DNA of 64,000 nt from [Ruminococcus] lactaris ATCC 29176 (GTDB taxonomy: Bacteria > Bacillota > Clostridia > Lachnospirales > Lachnospiraceae). The position numbers and the translations under genes are program-made. Below the pieces are notes generated by a model that ran no database searches, was not told where the DNA came from, and saw nothing but the letters and a program-made list of their open reading frames with translations. Positions 1 through 21,440 of the stretch are shown here, one piece after another (position 1 is the first letter of the stretch; every line of letters starts with the position of its first letter). Location of the stretch: contig NZ_CP102292.1 of NCBI RefSeq assembly GCF_025152405.1, forward strand, positions 496,001-560,000, in the 5' to 3' direction.

Positions 1-96
1 TTTAGATGTGAGAAGATTTTGTGAGTATCTGTGGAGAGAGCAGTACCATACAGATCAGATGGAAACAGATCAGAAGAAAATAAGGAGGAGATTTCA

Positions 97-7400: not shown

Positions 7401-7594
7401 GATGTTGGGGTCAAAAGCCCCCAACAATGATGCCAACGGATTGTTTCGTGCTACGCACCCCCACAATCCTACCCGCTATTCGCATATCATGGTGCTTACG
7501 CCCCACTTTTATGCTCATATCGGGGCGGGTCTCAAGGTCATTCTACCACCAGTGTGCAAGCTCATGTGGGCTTAGACCTTTTGCCCCTGACATC
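7401..7594. mobile_element. 194-bp MITE-like element, copy 2
   Basis: Same length as copies 1 and 3 and close to copy 1 in sequence, except that the 3' half of its right-hand hairpin resembles copy 3. It therefore looks chimaeric, and its inner stem GTGTGC/GCTCAT is mismatched. Its flanks are not direct repeats but an extended inverted repeat (AATAAAA on the left, TTTTATT on the right), so this copy lacks a clear target duplication. It lies just upstream of the truncated GGDEF gene. Confidence 0.85.
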
Positions 7595-7639
7595 TTTTAT
7601 TATTAATAGTATAGAAAGAAAAGAAAGGCAGCAACTGCA

Positions 7640-7900: not shown

Positions 7901-8557
7901 ATGATCAACAGAGAAGATATGCTGGCATTGACAAGGCGAATGACAGTAAAAAGAACATCCATTACCAGAATTGCAGGAAGTTATATGGATGAAGAAGGAT
8001 TTAGTGAAGGAACATTTAATACTCATTTTCAGAATCTGAGTCCGGCAGAAAGGGAGAAGAATCTTGCACTGGCAAAAGCAGTTCCTTTTTCTGAAACCAA
8101 TAAAAATCTGAAAGAATACTGTTTTGAATCTGAAAAAGATCAGAATGGAAAAGCGACAGTGAATCCTATGCGGCAGCTTCTGATAGGGATGAGAAACTGT
8201 GGCCTCAAAAATGATGCATTGATGGATACTTTTTATGAAGTGATTGGAGAAAAATATCAGACGGACAGTTCTTATGCAATCTATGTATTTCATGACAGAT
8301 ATGATATTCCTGCAAAGGGAAAAGATCATGAAAGGCTGGGAGAATCAGAAAATGTGTATGAATATCTGATCTGTGTGATTTGTCCGTTAGAAAATGAATA
8401 TGAACCTGGAGAGCCAGAATGTGGATTCCTTTTTCCTGCATTTTTGGATGGGGGAGCAGCATTAAACTGCGTGGATATTTATCAGAAAAATACAAAAAAT
8501 CCGCATACAGAGCTGAAAGAATTGCTTGGATGCAGACCAGTGGACAACAGGAGGTGA
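7901..8557 (+). pseudogene. 3'-truncated DUF4317 family protein
   Basis: The first 210 or so residues match the start of DUF4317 proteins, from memory of the family: MINREDMLALTRRMT, then AGSYMDEEGF, NTHFQNLSPAEREKNLALAKAVPFSETN. They run to HTELKELLGC. Full-length members are about 400 residues, so roughly the C-terminal half is missing. The stop at 8555 is followed at once by the start of a TetR gene whose ribosome site overlaps the stop, a layout best explained by a deletion that fused two unrelated genes. The function of DUF4317 is unknown. Confidence 0.7.
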
Positions 8558-8561
8558 GGTC

Positions 8562-9188
8562 ATGGGAAAAATGCTTAAAAATGAAGTGGCTAAAAATGAA
8601 TTGAAAGAAGTGCGGCATTCGGAAGAATGGCATAAATCGGGCGAAAAAGTAAAATACAGACTTGCAGATGCCATGAAATCCTGCATGAAAAAAGCACCGG
8701 TGGAGAAAATCACAGTTAAGGAGATCACGGAAGAGTGTGGTGTGACACGGCAGACATTTTACAGAAATTTTCAGGATAAATATGATCTGATCAACTGGTA
8801 TTTTGATAAGATTTTGATAGAATCATTTGCCCACATGGGAGAAGGAAAGACCGTGTATGAGGCACTGGTAAATAAATTCCATTACATACAGGAAGAAAAG
8901 CTGTTTTTCAAAGCAGCATTTAAAAATGATACTCAGAACTGTCTGAGAGATCATGATTTTGAACTGATCAGGGAATTTTATAAAAATCAGATTGAAGAAA
9001 AATCAGGAAAAACCATGTCGGAGCATCTGCAATTTCAATTAGAAATGTATTGTCAGGGGTCAATTTATATGACGGTACAATGGGTTTTGGGAGAGATGAA
9101 AGAAAGTCCGGAAAATCTTGCACATGCACTGGCACAGTCCATGCCGGAAGAATTGGCAAAAGTATTTCGGGAGCTGGAGATGTTGTGA
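8562..9188 (+). CDS. TetR/AcrR family transcriptional regulator
   Basis: A 208-residue DNA-binding regulator. The helix-turn-helix lies at about residues 45-75 (VKEITEECGVTRQTFYRNFQ, then DKYDLINWYF), and the C-terminal region looks like the TetR_C domain of DhaS-like regulators. ATG 8562 is chosen because AGGAGGTGAG lies just upstream; an earlier in-frame start at 8526 has no such site. The ligand and target genes are unknown. It may control the alcohol dehydrogenase 1.1 kb downstream, but the long repeat element between them makes that uncertain. Its TGA stop overlaps the first base of that repeat. Confidence 0.85.
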   Translation: MGKMLKNEVAKNELKEVRHSEEWHKSGEKVKYRLADAMKSCMKKAPVEKITVKEITEECGVTRQTFYRNFQDKYDLINWYFDKILIESFAHMGEGKTVYEALVNKFHYIQEEKLFFKAAFKNDTQNCLRDHDFELIREFYKNQIEEKSGKTMSEHLQFQLEMYCQGSIYMTVQWVLGEMKESPENLAHALAQSMPEELAKVFRELEML

Positions 9189-9276
9189 AATTTGTAGTTG
9201 TTGGGGTGAAAATATCGCGACAGCAGGAAGTGTTTCTGACAGAAGAGCGTCCATATCCACACTTGTTTGTTGCATC

Positions 9277-9416
9277 GCAGTGCAGGACCCGCTTTACCTC
9301 AGCCCGTTGACAACTTGTAACAGGAACGTGGAAACACTCGTGCAGAGGCACTCCTGTTTACGTTCCTTAACAAGTTGGGCAAAGTGTCTTCGGAACGCTC
9401 CTTGTCAATGCACTGC
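9277..9416 (+). ncRNA. Candidate structured RNA, left-arm core of element A
   Basis: Nested stems: GCAGTGCA/TGCACTGC (9277-9284/9409-9416), AACTTGT/ACAAGTT (9312-9318/9370-9376), AGGAACGT/ACGTTCCT (9322-9329/9360-9367), and hairpin GTGC/GCAC (9340-9343/9348-9351). The right arm keeps the same architecture with different bases in the stems. The near-identical copy in element B is at about 18714-18858. Transcription is not shown. Confidence 0.5.
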
Positions 9417-9567
9417 TCACGCAACAGCAAGGGCGGATATTAGGCTTTTCAAATCAGAAAATTTTCCCTCATGCCAGAACATTTTCTTCCAACAAAGACG
9501 AAATTCCAATAAGAAATAAAGAGCCGGATGGCTATCAACTAAGATAAATGATCTGTCCAATAGTAAA

Positions 9568-9761
9568 GATGTCGGGGTCAAAAGCCCCCGACTTTGATGC
9601 CTACGGATTGCTCCGTGCTACGCACTCCCACAATCCTACCGAATATTCGCATATCGTGGGATTATCATCCCACTTTTATGCTCATATCGGGGCGGGTCCT
9701 AAGGTCTTTCACCCACCTATGAGCAAGCTCATGTGGGCTTAGACCTTTTGACCCTGGCATC
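9568..9761. mobile_element. 194-bp MITE-like element, copy 3, nested in element A
   Basis: Flanked by direct repeats TAGTAAA (9561-9567 and 9762-9768). The related element C has the uninterrupted site with a single TAGTAAA at 20495-20501, which proves insertion with a 7-bp duplication. Terminal inverted repeats match at 15 of 17 positions. Compared with copies 1 and 2 it has many substitutions that keep the hairpins paired, such as TCGGGG/CCCCGA for TTGGGG/CCCCAA. Confidence 0.92.
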
Positions 9762-9923
9762 TAGTAAATACAATATCTACTGTCTAATATTTACGATCGA
9801 ATATCTTAGTCAATAGCCATCTGGCTTTTTCTATCCTTTTTAAATTTGCATTGGTGAATGAATACGCTGTGGAGTCGGTATAACTTCTTATTGAGATGGT
9901 CAGCGGAAAGCAGGGTGTTCCTG

Positions 9924-10062
9924 AGCAGGTGCATTAGCAGGAGCGTTCCGAAGACACTTTGCAGCGTTTGTTAGAGAAAGTAAATCGAGTGCCATTGCAC
10001 GAAGATTTCCACTTTCGAGTTACAAACGGTCAACGGGCTGAGGTAAAGCGGGCCTGCACTGC
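9924..10062 (-). ncRNA. Candidate structured RNA, right-arm core of element A
   Basis: Read on the minus strand, it shares GCAAAGTGTCTTCGGAACGC and other blocks with the left core. Stems are CGTTTGT/ACAAACG and GAAAGT/ACTTTC in place of the left-arm pairs, with the GTGC/GCAC hairpin unchanged. Plus-strand positions of the stems are 9965-9971/10022-10028 and 9976-9981/10011-10016. The equivalent in element C is at about 20631-20769. Confidence 0.5.
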
Positions 10063-10320
10063 GAAGGAATATCTCTGATTTCCGCGTCCGCTTCGCCACA
10101 AAGAAGCTTTCTGATTTACAAGCGTATCACCCCAACAACTACAAATTTATCGTTCACATAGTATAAAGAAAAAGTGAAAAGTGTAAAAAAATTGTGAAAA
10201 TGTTACAGATATACTAAATTGTAACTTCCATTTTGAAAAACAAATTGTTAAAATAAAGACATAAAAACCGGACAGGATAGTCTGCCGGAAGAATCTGTTG
10301 AAAAAAGGAGAATGATTACA

Positions 10321-11466
10321 ATGGCTAACAGAATTATGTTAAATGAGACATCTTATCATGGAGCAGGTGCGATTCAGGAAATCGCAAATGAAGCAAAGGC
10401 AAGAGCATTCAAAAAAGCATTTGTATGTTCTGATCCAGATCTGATTAAATTTGGAGTGACAGGAAAAGTGACAGATGTCCTTGATCATTCAGGACTTGCT
10501 TATGAAATTTATTCTGATATTAAAGCAAACCCGACCATCGAGAATGTGCAGCATGGCGTTCAGGCATTTAAAGATGCAGAAGCAGATTATATTATTGCAA
10601 TCGGTGGAGGATCATCCATGGATACAGCCAAGGCAATTGGTATCATTATTGCAAATCCGGAATTTGAAGATGTAAGAAGTCTGGAAGGTGTTGCACCGAC
10701 AAAGAACCCTTGCGTTCCGATTATTGCAGTTCCAACAACAGCCGGTACAGCAGCAGAAGTAACGATCAATTACGTTATTACAGACGTAGAGAAAAAGAGA
10801 AAATTTGTATGTGTAGATTCACATGATATGCCGGTAATCGCAGTGGTTGACCCGGAAATGATGTCTTCTATGCCAAAAGGACTGACAGCATCTACCGGAA
10901 TGGATGCCCTGACTCACGCAATCGAAGGATATACAACAAAGGCAGCCTGGGAGATGACTGATATGTTCCATTTGAAAGCAATCGAGATTATTTCCAGGTC
11001 TTTAAGAAGTGCTGTTGCCAATGAAAAAGAAGGTCGTGAGGGAATGGCTCTTGGACAGTACATCGCAGGAATGGGATTCTCCAATGTAGGTCTTGGAATC
11101 GCACATTCTATGGCCCATACATTAGGAGCAGTTTATGATACTCCACATGGTGTTGCATGTGCTATGATGCTTCCGATCGTTATGGAATATAATGCTGACT
11201 GCACAGGTGAAAAATACCGTGAGATCGCAAGAGCCATGGGAGTAAAGGGCGTTGATGAAATGTCTGTGGAAGAATACAGAAAAGCCGCAGTAGATGCAGT
11301 TCAGAAACTTTCTGTAGATGTTGGAATCCCGACAAAGCTTGAAGCATTAAAAGAAGAAGATCTGCAGTTCCTTGCAGAGTCAGCTCACGCAGATGCATGT
11401 GCACCGGGTAACCCGAAAGATGCGAGCGTTGAAGATCTGAAAGATCTGTTCAGAAAGCTGATGTAA
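10321..11466 (+). CDS. Iron-containing alcohol dehydrogenase, lactaldehyde reductase (FucO)-like
   Basis: A 381-residue NAD(P)-dependent, probably Fe(II)-containing dehydrogenase of the cytosol. The Rossmann part has IGGGSSMDTAKAIG near residue 95 and PTTAGTAAEVT near 138. The C-terminal metal region has DALTHAIEGY near 195 and GLGIAHSMAHTLGA and DTPHG near 260-280, which hold the iron-ligand His residues. The start MANRIMLNETSYHGAG is typical of FucO-type lactaldehyde reductases (1,2-propanediol formation from deoxysugars), but ethanol or other alcohol dehydrogenase activity is possible. ATG 10321 has AAGGAG 10 bases upstream; the ATG at 10312 is too close to it. The gene is monocistronic. 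Confidence 0.88.
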   Translation: MANRIMLNETSYHGAGAIQEIANEAKARAFKKAFVCSDPDLIKFGVTGKVTDVLDHSGLAYEIYSDIKANPTIENVQHGVQAFKDAEADYIIAIGGGSSMDTAKAIGIIIANPEFEDVRSLEGVAPTKNPCVPIIAVPTTAGTAAEVTINYVITDVEKKRKFVCVDSHDMPVIAVVDPEMMSSMPKGLTASTGMDALTHAIEGYTTKAAWEMTDMFHLKAIEIISRSLRSAVANEKEGREGMALGQYIAGMGFSNVGLGIAHSMAHTLGAVYDTPHGVACAMMLPIVMEYNADCTGEKYREIARAMGVKGVDEMSVEEYRKAAVDAVQKLSVDVGIPTKLEALKEEDLQFLAESAHADACAPGNPKDASVEDLKDLFRKLM

Positions 11467-11559
11467 TTCAAGATAACTTCAGGAGATATAGGAAAATAGA
11501 GTTTCAGTACAAAAGGAACTGATTTCGTAGGTTATTTCGTAAGTAATTGAAAATATATC

Positions 11560-11588
11560 TTGACATCACCGCACTAAAGTAGTAAAAT
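11560..11588 (+). promoter_or_regulatory. Promoter of the trp operon
   Basis: TTGACA (11560-11565), a 17-bp spacer and TAAAAT (11583-11588). This is an almost consensus vegetative promoter that places the start point near 11595, at the head of the T-box leader. Confidence 0.85.
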
Positions 11589-11594
11589 GTCACC

Positions 11595-11930
11595 AAATTT
11601 AAGAAAAATAAACCGTTGAAGCGGAGATCAAAGTAGTCGTGCACATACAGAGAGTCCGGGAGGCTGAGAGCCGGATTGAAACGCAGTCTGCCAAATGGAC
11701 CGCTGAGGGTACAGTCAAAGGAATTTATAAAAGAGGTCTGCAAAATTTCAGATTGGATATTGATTTATAATTCTGAGTATTCTGTGACGTGGAGGCATAC
11801 GTCAGTTGCCGGAGATATGATTGTATCTCGCAAAGTGCATGGAAAATTCCATGAATCAAGGTGGCACCGCGGAAATAAATTAGACTTACCGTCCTTGACA
11901 GAGTAGAAATATTCTGTCAGGGACTTTTTT
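11595..11930 (+). ncRNA. Tryptophan-specific T-box leader
   Basis: The leader RNA senses uncharged tRNA-Trp. The T-box AAGGTGGCACCGCGG is at 11858-11872. Stem I carries the usual AGAGAG and GGCTGAGAG blocks, and the specifier loop shows the codon TGG (11696-11698) followed by ACC, as expected for Trp. The sequence CCGTCCTT at 11889-11896 can pair with the T-box to form the antiterminator or join the terminator stem downstream. It governs the trpEGDCFBA genes directly after it. Confidence 0.95.
11891..11930 (+). terminator. T-box-controlled terminator of the trp operon
   Basis: Stem GTCCTTGACAGA/TCTGTCAGGGAC (one G-T pair) followed by TTTTTT. Its 5' strand overlaps the segment that pairs with the T-box, so the two structures exclude each other. 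Confidence 0.92.
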
Positions 11931-11978
11931 ATTTTGTCCCTGCCGGAATAAAATTTCGACATAAAAGGAGGACTACAG

Positions 11979-13475
11979 ATGAATGAGACACTGGAAATGA
12001 TTCAAAATTATGCTGCATCAGGAAAATATAAAAGAGTTCCGGTCAGCAGAGAACTCTATGCTGATGCATTTACACCGATCAGCGTTATGAGAACCCTTCG
12101 GGCGGCCAGCAGACACTGCTATCTGCTGGAAAGTGCGGAGGACCGACAACAGTGGGGAAGGTATTCCTTCCTGGGCTATGCACCGACAATGGAAATTACG
12201 TGTATGGATGGAAAAGTAGTCATCCTTGAAGGAAATGAAGAGGATGAGAAGATAAAAAGAGAAGTCCAGACGGATCATCCGGGGAAAATTCTCCGGGAGA
12301 TTTTAAAAGACTATAAAAGCCCGGTTGTTCCCGGATTACCGCCATATACAGGTGGTCTGGTGGGATATTTTTCATATGATTACATCAAATATGGGGAACC
12401 ATCACTGAAACCGATTTTAAATGGAGCGTCAGAAAATGATTTCCGGGATGCGGATCTGATGTTATTTGACAGGGTTATCGTCTTTGATAACTACAGACAG
12501 AAGCTGATCCTGATCACCGGAGTCCGGCTGGATGGAGACCTGGAAGAAAATTACGAAAATGCACAAAGAGAACTGGAAGAAATGGAGCGACTGATCCGCA
12601 GTGGTGCAAAGGCAGTATTTAAACCGTTGAAACTGGAAGAAGAATTTCAGCCGGGAGCAGAAAAAGCAGAGTATTGCAGAATGGTGGAAAAAGCAAAAGA
12701 ATATATCCGGGAAGGTGATATTTTCCAGGTGGTTCTTTCTAATCCACTTACGGCAAAGGCAAAAGGAAGTCTTTTTGATACTTACCGGGTACTGCGGACA
12801 TCGAATCCGTCACCTTATATGTTCTACTTCTCAAGTGACGATATCGAAGTGGCAGGAGCTTCGCCGGAAACGCTTGCGAAGCTTGAAAATGGAACGGTCT
12901 GCACCTTCCCGCTGGCAGGAACAAGACCCCGTGGAAAGACGGAGGAGGAAGATCAGAGGCTGGAACGAGAACTGCTGGCAGATGAAAAAGAACTGGCAGA
13001 ACATAACATGCTTGTAGATCTGGGAAGAAATGATGTCGGAAAGATCAGCCGGCCGGGAAGTGTTAAAGTAGATAAATATATGGAAATCCAGAGATTTTCC
13101 CATGTTATGCATATAGGTTCTACTGTAACCGGAACGATCAGTGAGGAAAAAGATGCTCTTGATGTAGTGGATGCGATTCTTCCTGCCGGAACTCTTTCAG
13201 GAGCACCAAAAATCCGGGCATGCGAGATTATCGCAGAACTGGAAAAGGAAAAAAGAGGAATTTATGGAGGAGCAGTCGGATATCTTGATTTTGCCGGAAA
13301 TGTAGATACCTGTATTTCCATCCGTCTGGCATATAAGAAAAATGGAAGTGTCCGGGTACAGTCCGGTGCAGGAATCGTAGCGGACAGTATTCCGGAAAAT
13401 GAATTTCAGGAATGTCTGAACAAGGCAGGAGCAGTATTGCAGGCAATTAAGATTGCAGAAGGAGGTCTGGAATGA
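11979..13475 (+). CDS. trpE: Anthranilate synthase component I
   Basis: Makes anthranilate from chorismate using ammonia supplied by TrpG. The 498-residue protein has the N-terminal LLES motif near residue 49, the usual site of feedback inhibition by tryptophan. The chorismate-binding core has PLAGTRPRGK near 312, DLGRNDVGKIS near 347 and LSGAPKIRA near 408. AGGAGG lies 7 bases before the ATG. It is the first gene after the T-box, and trpG starts inside its stop codon. The presence of LLES suggests that both enzyme inhibition and T-box control operate. Confidence 0.97.
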   Translation: MNETLEMIQNYAASGKYKRVPVSRELYADAFTPISVMRTLRAASRHCYLLESAEDRQQWGRYSFLGYAPTMEITCMDGKVVILEGNEEDEKIKREVQTDHPGKILREILKDYKSPVVPGLPPYTGGLVGYFSYDYIKYGEPSLKPILNGASENDFRDADLMLFDRVIVFDNYRQKLILITGVRLDGDLEENYENAQRELEEMERLIRSGAKAVFKPLKLEEEFQPGAEKAEYCRMVEKAKEYIREGDIFQVVLSNPLTAKAKGSLFDTYRVLRTSNPSPYMFYFSSDDIEVAGASPETLAKLENGTVCTFPLAGTRPRGKTEEEDQRLERELLADEKELAEHNMLVDLGRNDVGKISRPGSVKVDKYMEIQRFSHVMHIGSTVTGTISEEKDALDVVDAILPAGTLSGAPKIRACEIIAELEKEKRGIYGGAVGYLDFAGNVDTCISIRLAYKKNGSVRVQSGAGIVADSIPENEFQECLNKAGAVLQAIKIAEGGLE

Positions 13476-14044
13476 TACTTTTAATTGATAATTATGACAG
13501 TTTTGTATATAACCTGTATCAGTTTATTGCAGAAATTGAACCGGATGTAAAGGTTGTGCGAAATGATGAGATCACTTCAGAAGAAATCCTGAAAATGAAT
13601 CCGGATAAGATTGTAATCTCGCCAGGTCCGGGAAAACCGTCTGAGGCGGGAGAATGTATCCATGTGATCCGGGAATTAAAAGGAAAGATCCCGATTCTCG
13701 GAGTGTGCCTGGGACATCAGGCAATCGCAGAAGCATTTGGAGCAACCGTAGGATATGCAAAGCATCTGATGCATGGAAAAACGTCACTCCTTGAGGATGT
13801 GGATACAGACAGTCTTTTATTCCGAGGACTTGAAAAGCCGGTGCAGGTGGCACGCTATCACTCCCTTGCAGTGGAAGAAGATACACTTCCGAAAGAACTT
13901 AAGGTGACTGCAAGAAGCAAAGACGGAGAAGTGATGGCAATGGAGCATGAAAAATATCCAATCTATGGTGTACAGTTTCACCCGGAGTCAGTTATGACAC
14001 CGAAAGGATTTACGATGATAAAAAACTTTATAGAAAAGCAGTAA
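13472..14044 (+). CDS. trpG: Anthranilate synthase component II (glutamine amidotransferase)
   Basis: Class I glutamine amidotransferase that feeds ammonia to TrpE. The 190-residue protein has the oxyanion motif SPGPGKPSEAG near residue 50, the catalytic Cys in GVCLGHQAIAEAFG near 79, and the His-Glu pair in GVQFHPESVMTPKG near 170. It is a stand-alone trpG, not fused to trpD, and its ATG overlaps the trpE stop by 4 bases, which points to coupled translation. Confidence 0.97.
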   Translation: MILLIDNYDSFVYNLYQFIAEIEPDVKVVRNDEITSEEILKMNPDKIVISPGPGKPSEAGECIHVIRELKGKIPILGVCLGHQAIAEAFGATVGYAKHLMHGKTSLLEDVDTDSLLFRGLEKPVQVARYHSLAVEEDTLPKELKVTARSKDGEVMAMEHEKYPIYGVQFHPESVMTPKGFTMIKNFIEKQ

Positions 14045-14071
14045 ATTATGCAGACACAGGAGGAGCAGAAA

Positions 14072-15082
14072 ATGATTAAAGAAGCAATTATCAAACTGGC
14101 CAAAAAAGAAGATCTGACATATGCAGAAGCAGAGCAGGTCATGAATGAGATCATGGAGGGGAAAGCGACAGATGTACAGAAATCCGCATATCTGACAGCT
14201 CTTTCCATGAAAGGTGAAACGATCGATGAGATTACAGCATCAGCATCCGGTATGCGGGCACACTGCATCAAACTGCTTCATGATATGGATGTACTTGAAA
14301 TTGTAGGAACAGGTGGAGACGGATCCAATTCCTTTAACATTTCAACGACCTCTTCCATGGTTATTGCGGCAGCAGGAATCCCAGTAGCAAAGCATGGAAA
14401 TCGTGCAGCATCTTCAAAGTCCGGTGCAGCAGATGTACTTGAAGCATTGGGCGTTAAAATTGATGTTCCACCGGAGAAAAGCACAGAATTATTGAATAAG
14501 ATACAGATTTGTTTCTTGTTCGCACAGAATTATCATATCGCAATGAAATATGTCGGACCGATCCGTAAAGAACTGGGAATCCGTACAGTTTTCAATATTC
14601 TCGGACCACTCTCCAATCCGGCCGGTGCAAATATGGAATTGATGGGTGTATATGATCAGAGTCTTGTTGAACCACTGGCACAGGTAATGGCGAATCTGGG
14701 AGTTGTCCGTGGAATGGTCGTTTACGGACAGGATAAGCTGGATGAAATTTCCATGTGTGCGGCAACATCTGTATGTGAGATTAAAGATGGAAAATTCATT
14801 TCATACGAGATCACACCGGAACAATTTGGATATGAACGCTGTGAAAAAGGTGCGTTGACCGGAGGAACACCGGAAGAAAATGCAAAGATCACGATGGAGA
14901 TTCTGTCAGGGGCAGACAAAGGACCGAAACGTCAGGCAGTGTGCCTGAATGCCGGAGCCGCGATCTATATTGCAGGCAAGGCAGATACGATTGAAGCAGG
15001 AATAAGAAAAGCAGAGCAGATCATTGATGAAGGTCTTGCTTTGAAGAAGCTGGAACAGTTCAGAGAAGAAAGCCAGAAGTAA
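14072..15082 (+). CDS. trpD: Anthranilate phosphoribosyltransferase
   Basis: Transfers phosphoribose from PRPP to anthranilate. The 336-residue product shows the PRPP-binding signature [15 protein letters not shown] near residue 80, [12 protein letters not shown] near 107 and the C-terminal glycine-rich [10 protein letters not shown]. The start is placed at ATG 14072 because AGGAGG lies 8 bases upstream; an in-frame ATG at 14048 would add 8 residues but has no ribosome site. Third gene of the operon. Confidence 0.96.
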
Positions 15083-15124
15083 TAAATGTAAGAGAACAAC
15101 AAAAACAGGAAGGAAACAGCAGGT

Positions 15125-15928
15125 ATGAACATTCTTGAGACGATCACGGAAAGAACAAAAGAACGGATCAGAGGAGAAAAAAAGCAAATTCCCATAAATG
15201 AAATAAGAAAAAAGGCAGAAGAAAAAGCCAGTTCCGATACAACAAAATTTGCATTTGAGCAGGCACTTCGTGCAGAGGGACTTTCCTTTATCTGCGAGGC
15301 AAAAAAGGCATCTCCTTCTAAAGGACTGATTGCACCGGATTTTCCATATGTGCAGATAGCACAGGATTATGAAGCTGGCGGTGCGGCAGCAATTTCATGT
15401 CTGACAGAGCCATTCTGGTTTCAGGGAAGTGACCGCTATCTGGAAGAGATCGTACAGAAAGTATCCATTCCGGTACTCCGAAAAGATTTTACCTGTGATG
15501 AATATATGATCTATCAGGCAAAAGCGATGGGAGCTGCCGCAGTGCTTCTGATCTGTTCCTGTCTGGATGAAGGGCAGTTAAAAGCATATCATCAACTGGC
15601 GGAAGAGCTTGGAATTTCTGCATTAGTGGAAACTCACAGTGAAGAGGAGATTTTGACGGCAGACAGGATCGGAGCAAAAATCATAGGAGTCAATAATCGG
15701 AATCTGAAAGATTTCACGGTAGATATCAACAACAGTATCCGGTTGCGGGAACTGGTAGATCCAAAGACCGTTTTCGTGTCAGAAAGCGGAATTAAAGGGG
15801 GAGAAGATATGAAAGCCCTTTATAAAAATGGAACAGATGCAGTGCTGATCGGGGAGTTGCTGATGCGGGCGGAAGACCGGAAAAAGAAGCTCGCAGAACT
15901 GCGGATGGAAACCCGGAAAGGATGTTGA
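15125..15928 (+). CDS. trpC: Indole-3-glycerol phosphate synthase
   Basis: Closes the indole ring from CdRP with loss of CO2 and water. The 267-residue TIM-barrel has FICEAKKASPSKG near residue 57 (catalytic Lys and phosphate contacts), VLRKDF near 118 with the catalytic Lys, and GVNNRNLKDF near 190. It is a separate gene, not fused to trpF. It lies 42 bp after trpD and overlaps the run-up to trpF. Confidence 0.96.
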   Translation: MNILETITERTKERIRGEKKQIPINEIRKKAEEKASSDTTKFAFEQALRAEGLSFICEAKKASPSKGLIAPDFPYVQIAQDYEAGGAAAISCLTEPFWFQGSDRYLEEIVQKVSIPVLRKDFTCDEYMIYQAKAMGAAAVLLICSCLDEGQLKAYHQLAEELGISALVETHSEEEILTADRIGAKIIGVNNRNLKDFTVDINNSIRLRELVDPKTVFVSESGIKGGEDMKALYKNGTDAVLIGELLMRAEDRKKKLAELRMETRKGC

Positions 15929-15930
15929 AA

Positions 15931-16641
15931 ATGTCAGAAGAAAATAAAGATCCCGGAATCCCAAAAGCCCGGATTTTGAAATCGCAGATTCAGAAATCAC
16001 AGCCCCCAGGATCAAAGATTCCAAAAACAAAGATTAAAATCTGTGGGCTGAGCAGAATGGAAGATATTGAGGCGGTCAACGAGGCATGCCCGGATTATTG
16101 TGGATTTATTATTAATTACCCGCCGAGCAAAAGAAATATTTCTGTGGACCAGCTTGCAGAACTGAAGAAAATACTTAGAAAAGAGATGAAAGCAGTCGGA
16201 GTTTTTGTAGATGCACCTGCTGAATCGGTTGCGAAGCTGCTAAATGAAGATCTGATCGATCTTGCTCAGCTTCATGGAAATGAAGATGAAACTTATATAG
16301 CAAATCTGAAAAAACTGACAGCGAAACCGTTGATCAAAGCGGTGAAGGTCAGTACGGAAGAAGAGGTAAAAAAAGCTTTTGATACTGTTGCAGATGAAGT
16401 GCTGTTAGATCATGGAAAAGGAACAGGAAAAACATTTGACTGGAGCATTTTAAAAGCAGTGCCGGATCATCGATATTTCCTGGCAGGAGGACTCGGAACA
16501 GAAAATATAAAAGAAGCGATCCAGATCTATCATCCTGCAGTGATCGATCTGAGCAGTTCTGTAGAAACCGATGGAAAAAAAGACCGGAAAAAAATACTGG
16601 CAGCAGTAAAAGCAGTGCGGGATACCGGGAAAACAATATAG
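15931..16641 (+). CDS. trpF: Phosphoribosylanthranilate isomerase with N-terminal extension
   Basis: Isomerises PRA to CdRP. The catalytic start KIKICGLSRMEDIE, with the active-site Cys, only appears at about residue 34. In most TrpF proteins it is at residue 2-5, so there is an extra 30-residue basic, Pro/Lys/Ser-rich head with repeated KIP/KSQ units. Later motifs are normal: GFIINYPPSKRNI, GVFVDAP, LDHGKGTGKTFDW and LAGGLGTENI. ATG 15931 is preferred because AAAGGA lies 9-14 bases upstream; 15922 is too close. The extension may be dispensable and could reflect slippage in a repeat-rich stretch. Confidence 0.93.
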   Translation: MSEENKDPGIPKARILKSQIQKSQPPGSKIPKTKIKICGLSRMEDIEAVNEACPDYCGFIINYPPSKRNISVDQLAELKKILRKEMKAVGVFVDAPAESVAKLLNEDLIDLAQLHGNEDETYIANLKKLTAKPLIKAVKVSTEEEVKKAFDTVADEVLLDHGKGTGKTFDWSILKAVPDHRYFLAGGLGTENIKEAIQIYHPAVIDLSSSVETDGKKDRKKILAAVKAVRDTGKTI

Positions 16642-16683
16642 AAACAAGAGAACAAAAGAAAATAAAAAAGAAGGAGTTAAAAA

Positions 16684-17868
16684 ATGACAAAAGGAAGATA
16701 TGGGATTCATGGCGGACAGTATATTCCTGAAACGCTGATGAATGCAGTGATCGAGCTTGAAGAAGCTTATAACCATTATAAAAACGACAAAGAATTTAAC
16801 GATGAGCTGAATACACTTTTAAATGAATATGCGGGAAGACCATCCCGGCTGTATTATGCCAAAAGAATGACGGAAGATCTGGGCGGTGCAAAGATTTATT
16901 TGAAAAGAGAAGACTTGAATCATACCGGAGCACATAAGATCAATAATGTACTTGGTCAGGTTCTTCTTGCAAAGAAAATGGGAAAGACCAGGGTTATTGC
17001 AGAAACCGGTGCAGGTCAGCATGGAGTGGCAACAGCGACAGCAGCAGCACTGATGGATATGGAATGTGAAATCTTTATGGGAAAAGAAGATACAGAACGT
17101 CAGGCATTGAATGTTTACAGAATGAGACTTTTAGGTGCAAAAGTACATGCAGTCACAACCGGAACAGCAACTTTAAAAGATGCTGTATCGGAGACGATGA
17201 GAGAGTGGACGAAGAGAATAGAAGATACACATTATGTACTCGGTTCTTGCATGGGACCACATCCATTCCCACAGATTGTGCGTGATTTTCAGGCTGTGAT
17301 TTCAAAAGAGATCAAGGAACAGTTGATGGAAAAAGAAGGAAAACTCCCGGATGCAGTGCTTGCCTGCGTGGGAGGCGGATCCAATGCAATCGGTGCATTT
17401 TACAATTTTATCGAAGATGAGAGTGTACGACTGATCGGTTGTGAGGCAGCAGGAAGAGGAATTAATACTGCGGAAACAGCCGCAACGATCGCTACAGGAA
17501 AATTAGGAATCTTCCACGGAATGAAATCCTATTTCTGTCAGGATGAATATGGACAGATTGCACCAGTCTATTCTATTTCAGCAGGGCTTGATTATCCGGG
17601 AATCGGACCAGAACATGCAGATCTGTATGATAAAGGCAGAGCAGAATATGTAGCAATCACAGATGATGAGGCAGTTGATGCGTTTGAATATCTTTCAAGA
17701 ACAGAAGGAATCATTCCAGCCATCGAGAGTGCCCATGCAGTGGCATATGCAAGGAAACTGGCACCGACAATGAAAAAAGATCAGATTATTGTTATCAATA
17801 TTTCCGGTCGTGGAGATAAGGACTGTGCAGCAATTGCACGTTACAGAGGGGAGGATATCCATGAGTAA
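16684..17868 (+). CDS. trpB: Tryptophan synthase beta chain
   Basis: PLP enzyme that condenses indole with serine. In the 394-residue protein the PLP lysine lies in [13 protein letters not shown] near residue 85, the phosphate-binding loop is GGGSNAIG near 230, and ETGAGQHG is near 106. It is a TrpB1-type chain expected to pair with TrpA. GAAGGAG precedes the ATG and trpA begins inside its last codons. Confidence 0.97.
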
Positions 17869-18628
17869 GATTCAGAAAGCATTTGAAGGAAAAAAAGCAT
17901 TTATACCATTTATTACATGCGGTGATCCAAATTTAGAGACAACGGAGCAGCTTGTCTATGCGATGGAACGGGCAGGTGCATCGCTGATTGAACTGGGAAT
18001 CCCATTTTCAGATCCGACAGCAGAAGGTCCGGTGATCCAGGGAGCAAATCTGAGAGCACTTTCCGGTGGTGTTACGACAGACAAGATTTTTGACCTGGTT
18101 GTAAAAATAAGAAAAAATACAGCAATTCCACTGGTATTTATGACATATGCAAATGTAGTCTTTTCATATGGAACAGAGCGGTTCATTAAGAGAGCAGCGG
18201 AAATCGGGATGGACGGTCTGATCCTGCCAGATGTTCCGTTTGAAGAAAAAGAAGAATTTGACAGGGTATGCAGAGAGTATGGGTTAGATCTGATCTCATT
18301 GATCGCACCGACTTCTCACGACCGCATCCGTATGATCGCAAAAGAAGCTTCCGGTTTCATTTACTGTGTATCATCATTGGGAGTTACAGGTACTAGAAGT
18401 GCCATTACAACAGATATCGGAGCAATGGTCGGACTGGTAAAAGAAGTGACAGATGTTCCGTGTGCGGTTGGATTTGGAATTTCCACACCAGAGCAGGCAG
18501 CTAAAATGTGCGAAAGTGCAGATGGGGCAATCGTAGGCAGTGCGATTGTAAAAATCTGTGCGGAGTATGGAAAAGACTGCGTGGAGAAAGTGGAAGAATA
18601 CGTGAAAAGTATGGTGGGAGCGATATAA
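17861..18628 (+). CDS. trpA: Tryptophan synthase alpha chain
   Basis: Cleaves indole-3-glycerol phosphate and channels indole to TrpB. The 255-residue TIM-barrel has [11 protein letters not shown] at residue 15-25, the catalytic Glu in ELGIPFSDP near 49, and [10 protein letters not shown] near the phosphate site. The second catalytic acid region reads PTAEGPVIQ, with Glu where the enterobacterial enzyme has Asp; I recall this as common in clostridia. The ATG overlaps trpB by 8 bases. The stop codon TAA overlaps the first bases of repeat element B. It closes a complete seven-gene operon. Confidence 0.96.
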
Positions 18629-19150
18629 ATTTGTATTTGTTGGGGTGAAAATATCGCGACAGCAGGAAGTGTTTCTGACAGAAGAGCGTCCATATCCACA
18701 CTTGTTGTTGCATCGCAGTGCAGGACCCGCTTTACCTCAGCCCGTTGACAACTTGTAACAGGAACGTGGAAACACTCGTGCAGAGGCACTCCTGTTTACG
18801 TTCCTTAACAAGTTGGGCAAAGTGTCTTCGGAACGCTCCCTGTCAATGCACTGCTCACGCAACAGCAAGGGCGGATATTAGGCTTTTCAAATCAGAAAAT
18901 TTTCCCTCATGCCAGAACATTTTCTCCCAACAAGCACGAAATTCCAATAAGAAATAAAGAGCCGGATGGCTATCGACCAGGATAAGCAATCTGCAAACTG
19001 CAGGATTTGATATCTTAGTCGATAACCTTCCGGCTCTTCTTCTTATTTTTAAATTTGCATTGTTGAGTGAATATCCTGCTTGCCGCGTCCGCTCTGCCAC
19101 ATAGAAGTTTTCTGCTTTCCAAGCGTATCCCCCCCAACAACTACAAATTT
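18627..19150. mobile_element. Two-armed long repeat element, copy B (left core only)
   Basis: The left half is almost identical to element A (9188 on), including the structured core (18714-18858) and the central terminator-like stem (18959-19036). The right arm is short: it jumps from the centre to the last 70 bases and lacks the right core. Left and right ends are 22-bp inverted repeats, with the left reading AAATTTGTATTTGTTGG and the right (inverted) AAATTTGTAGTTGTTGG. It begins on the trpA stop codon and ends just before the promoter of the Rpn gene. Confidence 0.82.
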
Positions 19151-19185
19151 TATACTTATTTCATACAAACTTTAAATTCTTTTAA

Positions 19186-19214
19186 TTGATTTTTTTCTTA
19201 CACTATCTTATACT
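19186..19214 (+). promoter_or_regulatory. Promoter of the Rpn nuclease gene
   Basis: TTGATT (19186-19191), 17 bp, TATACT (19209-19214). The leader that follows (about 140 nt) contains a long inverted repeat, CATCAAAATCTC at 19222-19233 against GAGATTTTCATTTTGATG at 19311-19328, which could hide or expose the coding start. Confidence 0.6.
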
Positions 19215-19361
19215 CATCTCACATCAAAATCTCAGACAGATCCAATTCCCATTTTCTACGTCTGATGTCCAGTATGGAGAGCATTTCATATTTCAAGACC
19301 ATTTCGGTCAGAGATTTTCATTTTGATGATAACAATATTTTATTTTTAGGAGGACTTGCCT

Positions 19362-20378
19362 ATGGGACAAGCAGATGTAAATGTTAATCTTTGGCTTAAG
19401 GATACGAAACGGTTCGCAGACCTGTTCAACGCCATTTTATTTCATGGAGAAACCGTGATCCTGCCGGAGAACCTTCACCCCAGCCCGGAGACAACCGCAG
19501 TCAGTCTTCAGGACGCTCAGGGGAAAAATGTTGTAAAAAAGCTATACCGTGATATCATCATGAACTGGCAGGATCAGGCTGTGCTGATGCTGCTGGCGGT
19601 GGAATCACAGACTGCCATTCATTACGCTGCACCGTTGAAAGTAATGCTCTATGACAGCATGGAATATGCGGAACAGGTGCGGGTCAAATGGAAAGAACGT
19701 CCGCCCCGTCTTTCTTCGGCGGAATTTCTTTCCCGGTTTCAAAAAAATGATAAGCTCATCCCGGTGATTACTTTGATCTTCTATTATGGGACAGAGGAAT
19801 GGGATGGACCTTTGGAACTGCATCAGATGTTCGATCTTGGTACAGAAAAGAACCATGCGGAACTGATGAAAAAGTACCTTCCCAATTATCACATTAACCT
19901 CGTCGATGTCAGAAGACTGAAAAATTTAGAATCTTTTCAAAGTGATTTACAAATCATCTTCGGTATGCTACAATGTAGTCAGGATAAATACGCATTGCGT
20001 ACATATGTGGCAAATCATAAAGACTATTTCCAAAAGCTGGATCTGGAGACTTATCATGCACTTGGAGCATTCTTAAATTCCCGGCAGCTTATGGAGATAA
20101 ACGTAGAACAGGAAGAAAGGGAGGAACTGGATATGTGTAAAGCACTGGAAGATATTTATAATGACGGCGTTCAGGCTGGAATTGAACAGGGCAGACAATC
20201 GGGGATTGCCGAGGGAGAAGCTCATGGAAAAGAACTTGGCATTGCTGAAGGTAAAGCTTCCCACAAAAAAGATGTAGCCCGGCAAATGCAAAAGCTTGGT
20301 TATTCTTTGGATGCAATTGCAGCAGTACTAAGAGAATCGGTTGATGGAATCAGCAAGATACTGGCTGTAGTTGGATAA
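19362..20378 (+). CDS. Rpn-family recombination-promoting nuclease / putative transposase
   Basis: Member of the PD-(D/E)XK nuclease family once called transposase YhgA (Rpn), DNA endonucleases that promote RecA-independent recombination. The 338-residue protein begins with FADLFNAILFHGE. The core near residues 70-100 holds LMLLAVESQTAIHYAAPLK, where the E-x-Q resembles the family's catalytic strand. Next comes VITLIFYYGTEEWDGP near 140. Its C-terminal third has short Gly/Glu-rich repeats (GIAEGEAHGKELGIAEGKAS) typical of the group. ATG 19362 has AGGAGG 8 bases upstream. Its stop codon is the start of repeat element C, so it sits between two half-copies of that element. Confidence 0.85.
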   Translation: MGQADVNVNLWLKDTKRFADLFNAILFHGETVILPENLHPSPETTAVSLQDAQGKNVVKKLYRDIIMNWQDQAVLMLLAVESQTAIHYAAPLKVMLYDSMEYAEQVRVKWKERPPRLSSAEFLSRFQKNDKLIPVITLIFYYGTEEWDGPLELHQMFDLGTEKNHAELMKKYLPNYHINLVDVRRLKNLESFQSDLQIIFGMLQCSQDKYALRTYVANHKDYFQKLDLETYHALGAFLNSRQLMEINVEQEEREELDMCKALEDIYNDGVQAGIEQGRQSGIAEGEAHGKELGIAEGKASHKKDVARQMQKLGYSLDAIAAVLRESVDGISKILAVVG

Positions 20379-20853
20379 ATTTGTCGGGGAGAAAACTTTC
20401 CCTCATGCCAGAACATTTTCTCCCAACAAAGACGAAATTCCAATAAGAAATAAAGAGCCGGATGGCTATCAACTAAGATAAACGCTCCATCAAATAGTAA
20501 ATACAATATCTTAGTCGATAGCCATCCGGCTTTTTTTCTATTCTTTTTAAATTTGCATTGTTGAGTGAATACGCTGTGGAGCTAAAAACTTCTTATCGAG
20601 ATGGTCAGCGGAAAGCAGGATGTTCCTGAGCAGGTGCATTAGCAGGAGCGTTCCGAAGACACTTTGCAGCGTTTGTTAGAGAAAGTAAATCGAGTGCCAT
20701 TGCACGAAGATTTCCACTTTCGAGTTACAAACGGTCAACGGGCTGAGGTAAAGCGGGCCTGCACTGCGAAGGAATATCCCTGATTTCCGCGTCCGATTCG
20801 TCACAAAGAAGTCTTTTTCTTTACAAGCGTATCATTCCAACAAATACAAATTT
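20377..20853. mobile_element. Two-armed long repeat element, copy C (right core only)
   Basis: The left end is degenerate (AAATTTGTCGGGGAGAAAA) and lacks the left core. The centre (stem 20456-20480/20507-20530, then TTTTTTT) and the right arm with its core (20631-20769) match element A. The right end, inverted, reads AAATTTGTATTTGTTGG, the same variant as the left end of element B. It contains the empty TAGTAAA site that shows where the 194-bp element entered copy A. Confidence 0.82.
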
Positions 20854-20861
20854 AATTCTAT

Positions 20862-21440
20862 TTATCTTACTTTTTTCGTTGCTGCATACAGTTTTGGTCC
20901 TACGATTACTGCAATAATGATCTTAACAGCATCTCCCGGGAGATACGGGATAACGCCCATGAAAAGTCCTTCTTTGAAGGAAAGGCTCATCAGTTTTGCG
21001 AGCCAGACTGTTCCGAAGATATAGCATACAGCCATACCAATGAGCATACCGATGATCGTTGGGATCAGCTTACGGTCAAAATATTTCATTGCAAAGCCCT
21101 GGATCAGTGCAAGAAAAATAAAGCCGATCAGATAACCGCCTGTCGGTCCTGCAAGTACACTGAGACCTGCATGGAAGGAGGCAAAAACCGGAAGTCCTAC
21201 TGAACCGAGAAGCAGATAAATTAAAAAGCTGATCGTAGCATCTTTCATTCCCAAAATAAATACGGAAATAAAGATAACCAGATTTGTGAGAGAAATCGGT
21301 ACCGGACTGAATGGAAGCGGAATTGACAGCGGTGCAAGAATGCAGGTGATCGCAGTCATCAGTCCAATCAGAGTAATCTGTCTGGTTCTTGAATTTTGAG
21401 TAAGAGAGGTTGTCTGTCCGTTTGGTTGCTGATTAGTCAT
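20862..21440 (-). CDS. bioY: Biotin transporter substrate-binding (S) component BioY
   Basis: A 192-residue membrane protein of the BioY family, the S component of an ECF-type biotin uptake system. It has about six hydrophobic segments, PLPFSPVPISLTNLVIF near residue 42 and the signature AGPTGGYLIGF near 97. The first 20 residues are a polar Gln/Thr-rich head. AAAGGAG precedes the ATG on the minus strand. No ECF ATPase or T subunit lies nearby, so it would use shared EcfAAT modules or act alone. A BirA-like operator overlaps its promoter. Confidence 0.95.
   Translation of the reverse strand: MTNQQPNGQTTSLTQNSRTRQITLIGLMTAITCILAPLSIPLPFSPVPISLTNLVIFISVFILGMKDATISFLIYLLLGSVGLPVFASFHAGLSVLAGPTGGYLIGFIFLALIQGFAMKYFDRKLIPTIIGMLIGMAVCYIFGTVWLAKLMSLSFKEGLFMGVIPYLPGDAVKIIIAVIVGPKLYAATKKVR

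Follow-up and report, generated by a model that had tools for sequence, protein, structure and literature searches.

This study concerns a family of repeats in a 64,000-nt stretch (the window) of [Ruminococcus] lactaris ATCC 29176, contig NZ_CP102292.1, positions 496,001 to 560,000, in which an initial annotation had singled out three elements, A, B and C. The left end of A gives the last stop-codon base of a TetR-type gene (8526-9188) and that of B completes the TAA stop of a trpA-type gene (17789-18628). Between B and C lies an rpn gene, an open reading frame (ORF) of 340 aa matching PF04754 at 33.1 bits (cut-off 21), whose stop codon extends into C, and the right end of C is 8 nt from the stop of a BioY-type gene on the minus strand (20862-21440). 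The family is made up of non-coding foldback elements that are dispersed in Mediterraneibacter (genus taken from record names) and in a few further Lachnospiraceae; the outer ends of the two foldback arms are the 22-bp inverted ends and are positioned at gene stop codons, an abutment which adds to what the initial annotation had described. The features are listed below, the inner arm ends within the window having been placed by eye.

9188-10148, no strand: element A, the full two-armed element with a Clostridiales-1 insertion
9188-9503, plus strand: left foldback arm of A, outer end AAATTTG..., inner end ..CCAACAAAGACGAAATTCC placed by eye, foldback extent taken from relatives
9277-9416, plus strand: left structured core of A, drawn inward; the complement folds better
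9561-9567, no strand: 7-bp direct repeat TAGTAAA beside the Clostridiales-1 copy, second copy at 9762-9768, placed by eye against the uninterrupted site in C
9568-9761, minus strand: Clostridiales-1 (RF01699) insertion in the middle of A, ends GATGTCGGGGTC / GACCCTGGCATC
9842-10148, minus strand: right foldback arm of A, inner end placed by eye
9924-10062, minus strand: right structured core of A, drawn inward
18627-19150, no strand: element B, left arm and centre, right core deleted
19151-20378, plus strand: rpn unit, ORF 19356-20378, PF04754, Rpn/YhgA-like, beginning at the end of B (CAAATTT/TATACTT)
20377-20853, no strand: element C, centre and right arm, left core deleted
20629-20767 (genome 516629-516767), minus strand: right structured core of C, drawn inward

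A full element consists of two oppositely oriented arms around a short central hairpin. All three elements had been described as two-armed, with common 22-bp inverted ends and a central hairpin, a description which holds in part. The terminal inverted repeat is perfect in A (9188-9209 / 10127-10148) and the left end of C is degenerate; A carries both cores, whereas B retains the left core only, matching the left arm of A at 97% over a 289-nt block, and C the right core only, matching the right arm at 95% over a 268-nt block. The centre of C contains, by eye, a G+C-rich stem with T-runs facing both ways, which was not listed in a terminator scan restricted to loops of 3-8, whereas the middle of A is not a simple hairpin and holds the Clostridiales-1 copy. 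The blocks quoted as common to the inward-facing left and right cores are present, complementarity between the two cores of A being 83% over 66 nt and 75% over 63 nt.

The arm structure is under selection. The paired stem changes noticed at the outset, AACTTGT/ACAAGTT against CGTTTGT/ACAAACG and the GAAAGT/ACTTTC variant, are present, and RNAalifold applied to 35 cores from this genome finds changes on both sides in 7 of 39 pairs. Lack of covariation over many copies had been named as the observation that would overturn the RNA claim; in the 102 distinct core sequences taken from named loci, both sides vary in 37 of 41 pairs and pairing is retained in 91.9% of cells. These values, with a covariation score of 0.528 (0.156 shuffled and 0.044-0.102 slid), come from an alignment that was fitted to the model, which favours the structure of the model. 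Fitting to the own-genome model gives 30 of 39 pairs changed on both sides and a score of 0.489 against 0.154. Helix P5 contains 916 Watson-Crick, 2 G.U and 6 A.C cells (132 anchorable of 159 distinct sequences), and the conserved unpaired blocks, by eye, are CCGCTYTACCTCA, TGTAAC, TAACA and TTCGGAACGCTCC. Palindromes devoid of function, kept perfect just by DNA hairpin repair or template switching, could account for one left core (L103:1768-1906), whose internal loop is by eye rewritten to match the partner strand and pair perfectly, as hairpin template switching would do. Such an origin is highly improbable for the family, as the internal loops are nearly invariant across species while the stems change in pairs, and the stem mismatches are strand-biased, yet the spacers show no bias.

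Pairing continues beyond the core. Stems extend outward, 112 of 115 flank pairs scoring at least 20, a score obtained with shuffled sequence in 0 of up to 500 trials. The foldback edge was located in 54 arms chosen beforehand because a sense gene lies 60-110 nt upstream of the core (three arms are from this genome), by aligning the leader with the inner flank after addition of 73 nt of the gene. With the first scoring 52 of the 54 beat every shuffle, and the foldback started between -9 and +6 of the stop in 33, between +7 and +20 in 12, later in eight and earlier in one. Per position, complementarity lay at 0.47-0.58 within the gene, rose to 0.63 over the first ten bases after it and reached 0.66-0.91 further on. 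An earlier estimate, which placed 51 of the 54 arms within 6 nt of the stop, was discarded since its scoring was too lenient, the alignments running into the gene when allowed to do so. As the foldback alignment starts near the stop and the stems extend outward from the core, the arm is an imperfect palindrome of about 310 nt (about 85 nt, a 140-nt core and about 85 nt) which ends near the stop codon.

The genome-wide copy census proposed in the initial annotation was performed by BLAST with the arms of A, and returned 32 left and 34 right arms, each of at least 278 nt, in this genome. The full cores comprise 19 distinct sequences among the 32 left and 25 among the 34 right copies. Conservation across own copies, calculated per 20-nt window, is 97-100% in the cores and mostly 71-94% in the rest of the arms. 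Searching with a covariance model built on the own-genome cores detects the motif in 41 of 58 genomes of the genus and in 3 of 299 of the family, this genome being counted in both. With a second model, constructed from 45 matches, the counts are 7 of 397 genomes at family level, in 5 of 334 genera, and 6 of 392 at order level, in 2 of 173 genera, the large model searches having used stricter filters with which weak matches are lost. A pattern scan of GTDB genomes identified at least 80 loci, among the matches listed mostly from Mediterraneibacter and other Lachnospiraceae. One Microbacterium match was rejected, as it sits inside an apparent gene and the model does not find it. The pattern had 0 matches in viral_contigs and the search gave no plasmid match; four short unannotated 'Bacteriophage sp.' contigs contain partial matches, the best place in each being at the contig end. 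In a genome of another genus, solo cores lie between apparent grpE/dnaK and apparent leuB/ilvD genes (L126 and L128; gene names by eye).

Stop-codon abutment was quantified at the AAATTTG outer ends of this genome. Fifty-five ends were retained from 57 fuzzy matches to the 22-nt end, the right end of L096 and the first left end of L103 being dropped and unmatched ends remaining uncounted, and stops were assigned by taking, among ORFs of 60 aa or more that terminate close to an end, the longest one, a procedure in which individual calls may be wrong. The gap to the stop is -2..0 in 26 and 1..11 in 12; two others lie at 22 and 32 and two at -10, and 13 have no stop in range, five of which are 5' junctions of rpn. 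At control positions 150-500 nt further out (n=1095) the corresponding numbers are 1 at -2..0, 8 at 1..11, 72 elsewhere and 1014 with none. Some of the abutting C-termini look native, icd ending in FIKAIAKRL here and in many relatives. In other species, examined at 83 sides (three from this genome) chosen for a sense gene within 110 nt, stops are abutted by different end sequences, for example TAA followed directly by ATTCGTGTTTGTT.

The neighbouring genes are predominantly convergent. For 102 elements in fetched loci, three from this genome, genes were called mechanically as ORFs of at least 100 aa, and 23 elements lie at a locus edge; the 79 others are situated between convergent genes in 49 cases, co-directional genes in 27 and divergent genes in three. 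Convergent genes bound 25 of 40 gaps containing elements, as against 43 of the 368 remaining gaps of the named loci concerned (Fisher p 3e-12). The icd gene has a convergent tmcAL-like neighbour in 8 of 30 fetched loci by script, the own-genome icd locus in this set (L307) being cut short and therefore counted as 'other neighbour'. The icd/tmcAL stop-to-stop spacing is -26, 8, 51, 81, 113, 113 and 127 nt in seven species and 504 nt in L308, which carries an arm; at the full own-genome locus (L112) an element fills the whole gap between icd and the tmcAL-like gene, stop to stop. On these spacings the element-filled gap appears to be the derived state, and insertion into a pre-existing AAATTT between near-touching stops is unlikely. 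A comparable empty site was sought at nagA, where none of the 11 loci examined, out of 29 from other species, contains a convergent rluA relative. Giant hairpins of a second class (..GGCTAAATACA..TAACGCC..), which likewise abut the stop, were observed by eye after icd in L309, L312, L317, L320, L321, L323 and L332, and in L138:1121-1217 a hairpin of this class is paired, again by eye, with an arm of the kind described here (type 1) in one element; the loci with the second class have no Rfam match.

A position fixed relative to the stop codon could mean that the elements serve the host as 3' untranslated region (UTR) modules, acting in cis on the flanking mRNAs through stability, termination or antisense shielding, and being inherited vertically and homogenised by gene conversion rather than transposed. 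The occurrence of stop-abutting giant hairpins of either type at icd in many of the 30 loci (partly by eye) and the stronger conservation of the cores than of the rest of the arms are consistent with such a role. It is nevertheless an unlikely explanation, though one to be taken seriously: seven of the eight icd/tmcAL orthologues are without a type-1 core, many copies in this genome are alike across the whole arm, the own-genome flanking genes look by eye like an unrelated mix, and the inward strand, which is the sense strand, keeps A.C and not G.U in its long stems.

Mismatches in the stems distinguish the two strands. Read inward, the P6 stems contain 90 A.C and 25 G.U cells, or 55 and 21 distinct contexts (binomial p 1e-4, contexts from related sequences not being independent), and the outer stems 243 and 97, or 150 and 76 distinct contexts. 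A mutational strand bias was rejected as the source of the A.C excess, since the unpaired spacers of own copies show no imbalance of transitions (145 vs 145); in the own-genome cores transitions number 15 vs 15, too few to decide the strand. Folding energy is lower on the inward strand in just 3 of 125 sequences. Since an A.C mismatch on one strand corresponds to a G.U or G.T pair on its partner, the complement appears to be under selection, and the conserved strand is probably the one opposite to the inward strand drawn initially, acting as RNA or as single-stranded DNA. Thus, the proposal of a structured RNA carried on a mobile element is upheld insofar as the structure is real, under selection and part of a dispersed repeat; the long-stem mismatches point to the opposite strand, and folded single-stranded DNA is as good a reading as RNA.

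A trans-acting small RNA transcribed from the arms, possibly off the complementary strand, would explain the covariation and the conserved loops, and the lower inward folding energy in so few sequences suits the complementary strand. Two weak minus-strand promoter-like sites could feed an arm, at 10187-10160 (10/12 matches) and 9813-9786 (9/12). Promoter-like sites are, however, not clearly above chance, with four weak sites in A against a mean of 1.8 expected (sd 1.4) and five against 4.0 in a further scan, and inspection of the family alignments by eye revealed no outward promoter. Dozens of near-identical copies are present, and folded DNA needs the structure equally. We therefore consider a small RNA decidedly unlikely. 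In Rfam 15 the arms match no family at the gathering score, and at E<=10 nothing except two matches far below gathering, in accord with the initial statement that no named RNA corresponds to them. Among the papers listed in literature searches, none describes the arms in its title or the start of its abstract; the motif may be among the 3161 candidate RNAs of PMC8040213, some of which are palindromic.

That statement does not extend to the centre of A. The match to a known Rfam family, named at the outset as what would make the element a described one, occurs there and not in the arms: the Clostridiales-1 model matches 9595-9762 at 148.5 bits (gathering 48). Two further matches lie in the window, at 2262-2429 and 7428-7595, and the genome contains 109, of which 84 are over the cut-off. 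The insertion in A is flanked on both sides by TAGTAAA, and C provides the uninterrupted site (by eye). The insertion has 12-bp inverted ends of its own. Among the 30 best copies, 21 are bounded by a perfect direct repeat of 7 or 8 bp at ends of the GATGCCAGGGTC / GACCCCGACATC type, seven by a shorter one and two by none; crossing left and right flanks of different copies gave 22 of 870. The frequency of direct repeats relative to this control indicates that Clostridiales-1, filed as a small RNA, behaves as a small mobile insertion in this genome. It occupies a similar central position in other copies of the family too, and no relation to the arms was found. In another species (L353) a Clostridiales-1-like sequence was seen by eye just downstream of nagA. 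Two different transposases of the IS630 family, which prefers CTAG targets, lie inside two elements, in the same orientation and at the same CTAG beside the Clostridiales-1 copy (L091:1184-2374 and L092:1212-2483; ends by eye). They were rejected as drivers of the family, as they look like nested insertions at CTAG.

The rpn gene is present in six copies in this genome, all between such elements or their remnants. All six units begin at CAAATTT/TATACTTATTTCATAC and have a stop codon which extends into element sequence; the 3' element is deleted or truncated at three copies, that of the window included. Mean identity over the first 900 nt of the rpn units is 97.1%, compared with 89.9% for the five adjoining left arms and 90.9% for random left-arm pairs. 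The similarity of the units relative to their arms, together with the fixed junction, suggests that rpn moved or recombined with its boundaries at element ends. According to PMC5350276, the Rpn proteins of E. coli stimulate recombination that does not require RecA, and RpnA has DNA endonuclease activity.

Integron attC sites are foldbacks with variable stems and conserved unpaired parts, located after a stop codon, in which the bottom strand is functional. The arms resemble them as foldbacks after stop codons with variable stems and conserved unpaired parts, and differ in that the family is two-armed and lies mostly between convergent genes, and in motifs; the bias of A.C over G.U suggests a preference for one strand, not its use. 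The elements could thus be cassette boundaries, bottom-strand-folded recombination sites which join genes such as rpn, perhaps by means of the Rpn nuclease. The invariant 5' junction of all six rpn copies, arms no closer to each other than random pairs, sites that follow stop codons, the complement-strand bias and the recombination role in E. coli would fit. We nonetheless find such cassette boundaries quite improbable: PF04754 matches co-occur weakly with the motif (21 of 41 genomes with it, 4 of 17 without), most elements flank ordinary-looking genes, and the 28 other-species Rpn loci given show no type-1 arm, on which ground Rpn was rejected as a general partner. A REPtron-like system, in which a folded complement-strand foldback site would be placed exactly at stop codons and moved or joined by the Rpn (transposase_31) nuclease, is likewise only an outside prospect, to which we assign the same low likelihood as to a small RNA.

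Among other mobile elements, miniature inverted-repeat transposable elements (MITEs) share with the family short, non-coding, dispersed units with inverted ends (22 bp and perfect in A); they differ from it in that here structured cores are under selection and the ends lie at stop codons. Inspection of element flanks by eye, with no shuffle control, revealed only one possible target-site duplication, a 5-bp repeat (AAATT) at L091. As to an autonomous relative with matching ends, the transposase genes found inside elements are the two nested-looking ones of L091 and L092, no genome search for every transposase having been made. The central hairpin of C is, by eye, like a bidirectional Rho-independent terminator; the arms do not resemble terminators.

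Among known systems, the repetitive extragenic palindromes (REPs) and bacterial interspersed mosaic elements (BIMEs) are closest. PMC3733652 and PMC2817692 describe these as extragenic palindromes in opposite orientation, located chiefly where neighbouring genes converge or run in the same direction, with termini that are able to contribute a stop codon; RAYT genes are bounded by REPs that follow immediately on the stop codon. The layout is similar here, with opposite pairs downstream of convergent or co-directional genes, in high copy number and extragenic, stop-supplying ends and a gene bounded by the elements. Membership fails on size, head motif and RAYT: in place of palindromes of 20-40 bp in very many copies there are arms of about 310 nt and 66 full cores; GTAG of the GTAG/CGTC head occurs in own-genome ends (TTTGTAG), with many other species having ATTCGTGTTTGTT or similar (by eye); and the bounded gene is Rpn (PF04754), in this genome only. 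A RAYT-type driver was not found, the single PF01797 gene of this genome looking IS605-type and lying away from complete elements.

Our preferred explanation, held with slightly less than even confidence, is that of a REP/BIME-like foldback element which would be mobilised in trans and double as a 3'-end module of convergent genes. It would work like the proteobacterial REP/BIME repeats: one folded strand, probably the complement of the inward strand, would be recognised by a putative enzyme acting in trans, which would copy or exchange the element. The element would supply a common terminator and 3' UTR to both neighbours, the central hairpin (by eye) serving as a two-way terminator. Copies may persist at gene 3' ends because no gene is broken there and a terminator and 3' UTR are supplied. 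Since no target duplications are evident, the stop abutment would be attributed to an exchange or placement at the ends of genes rather than to ordinary cut-and-paste.

Several observations weigh against this trans-mobilised element. The arms are about ten times longer than REPs (20-40 bp) and possess a complex conserved core, and under the harshest scoring only the core-adjacent stem is kept in most arms, 45 of 54 starting later than +20. The strand preference is absent or reduced when all helices of the fitted alignments are counted (A.C vs G.U of 56 vs 58 in A2, 53 vs 54 in A3 and 180 vs 122 in A4), and P5 holds 6 A.C vs 2 G.U. Solo cores between co-directional genes occur in sense orientation in 10 cases and antisense in 11, a lack of preference which also argues against a strict sense-strand role. 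At icd, the model finds a type-1 core in two other species (L308 and L316), the start of one is visible by eye in L327, where the contig ends, and in about nine species the icd stop is directly followed by a giant hairpin of another type (by eye); this distribution fits a long-lived function or a hotspot as well as mobility. With respect to the enzyme, the sole Y1 transposase (PF01797) of the genome is not beside a complete element and precedes a long ORF that looks by eye like tnpB, the arrangement of an IS605-type pair; no type-1 arm was found within the fetched flank of the 28 other-species Rpn loci, and the other-species loci searched contained no Rpn relative at tblastn E<1e-3.

If correct, the trans-mobilised foldback element would extend the known mobile palindromes by a class of large and deeply structured elements, found in a genus of gut bacteria and marked by the unexplained precision with which their ends meet stop codons, frequently those of both members of a convergent pair. 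For Clostridiales-1, an 'sRNA' family in Rfam, the data indicate a transposon-like insertion in this genome. The elements would also offer a definite candidate for the target of Rpn nucleases, and their many covarying sequences a basis for enquiring whether a mobile repeat is driven by a folded strand, be it of DNA or of RNA.

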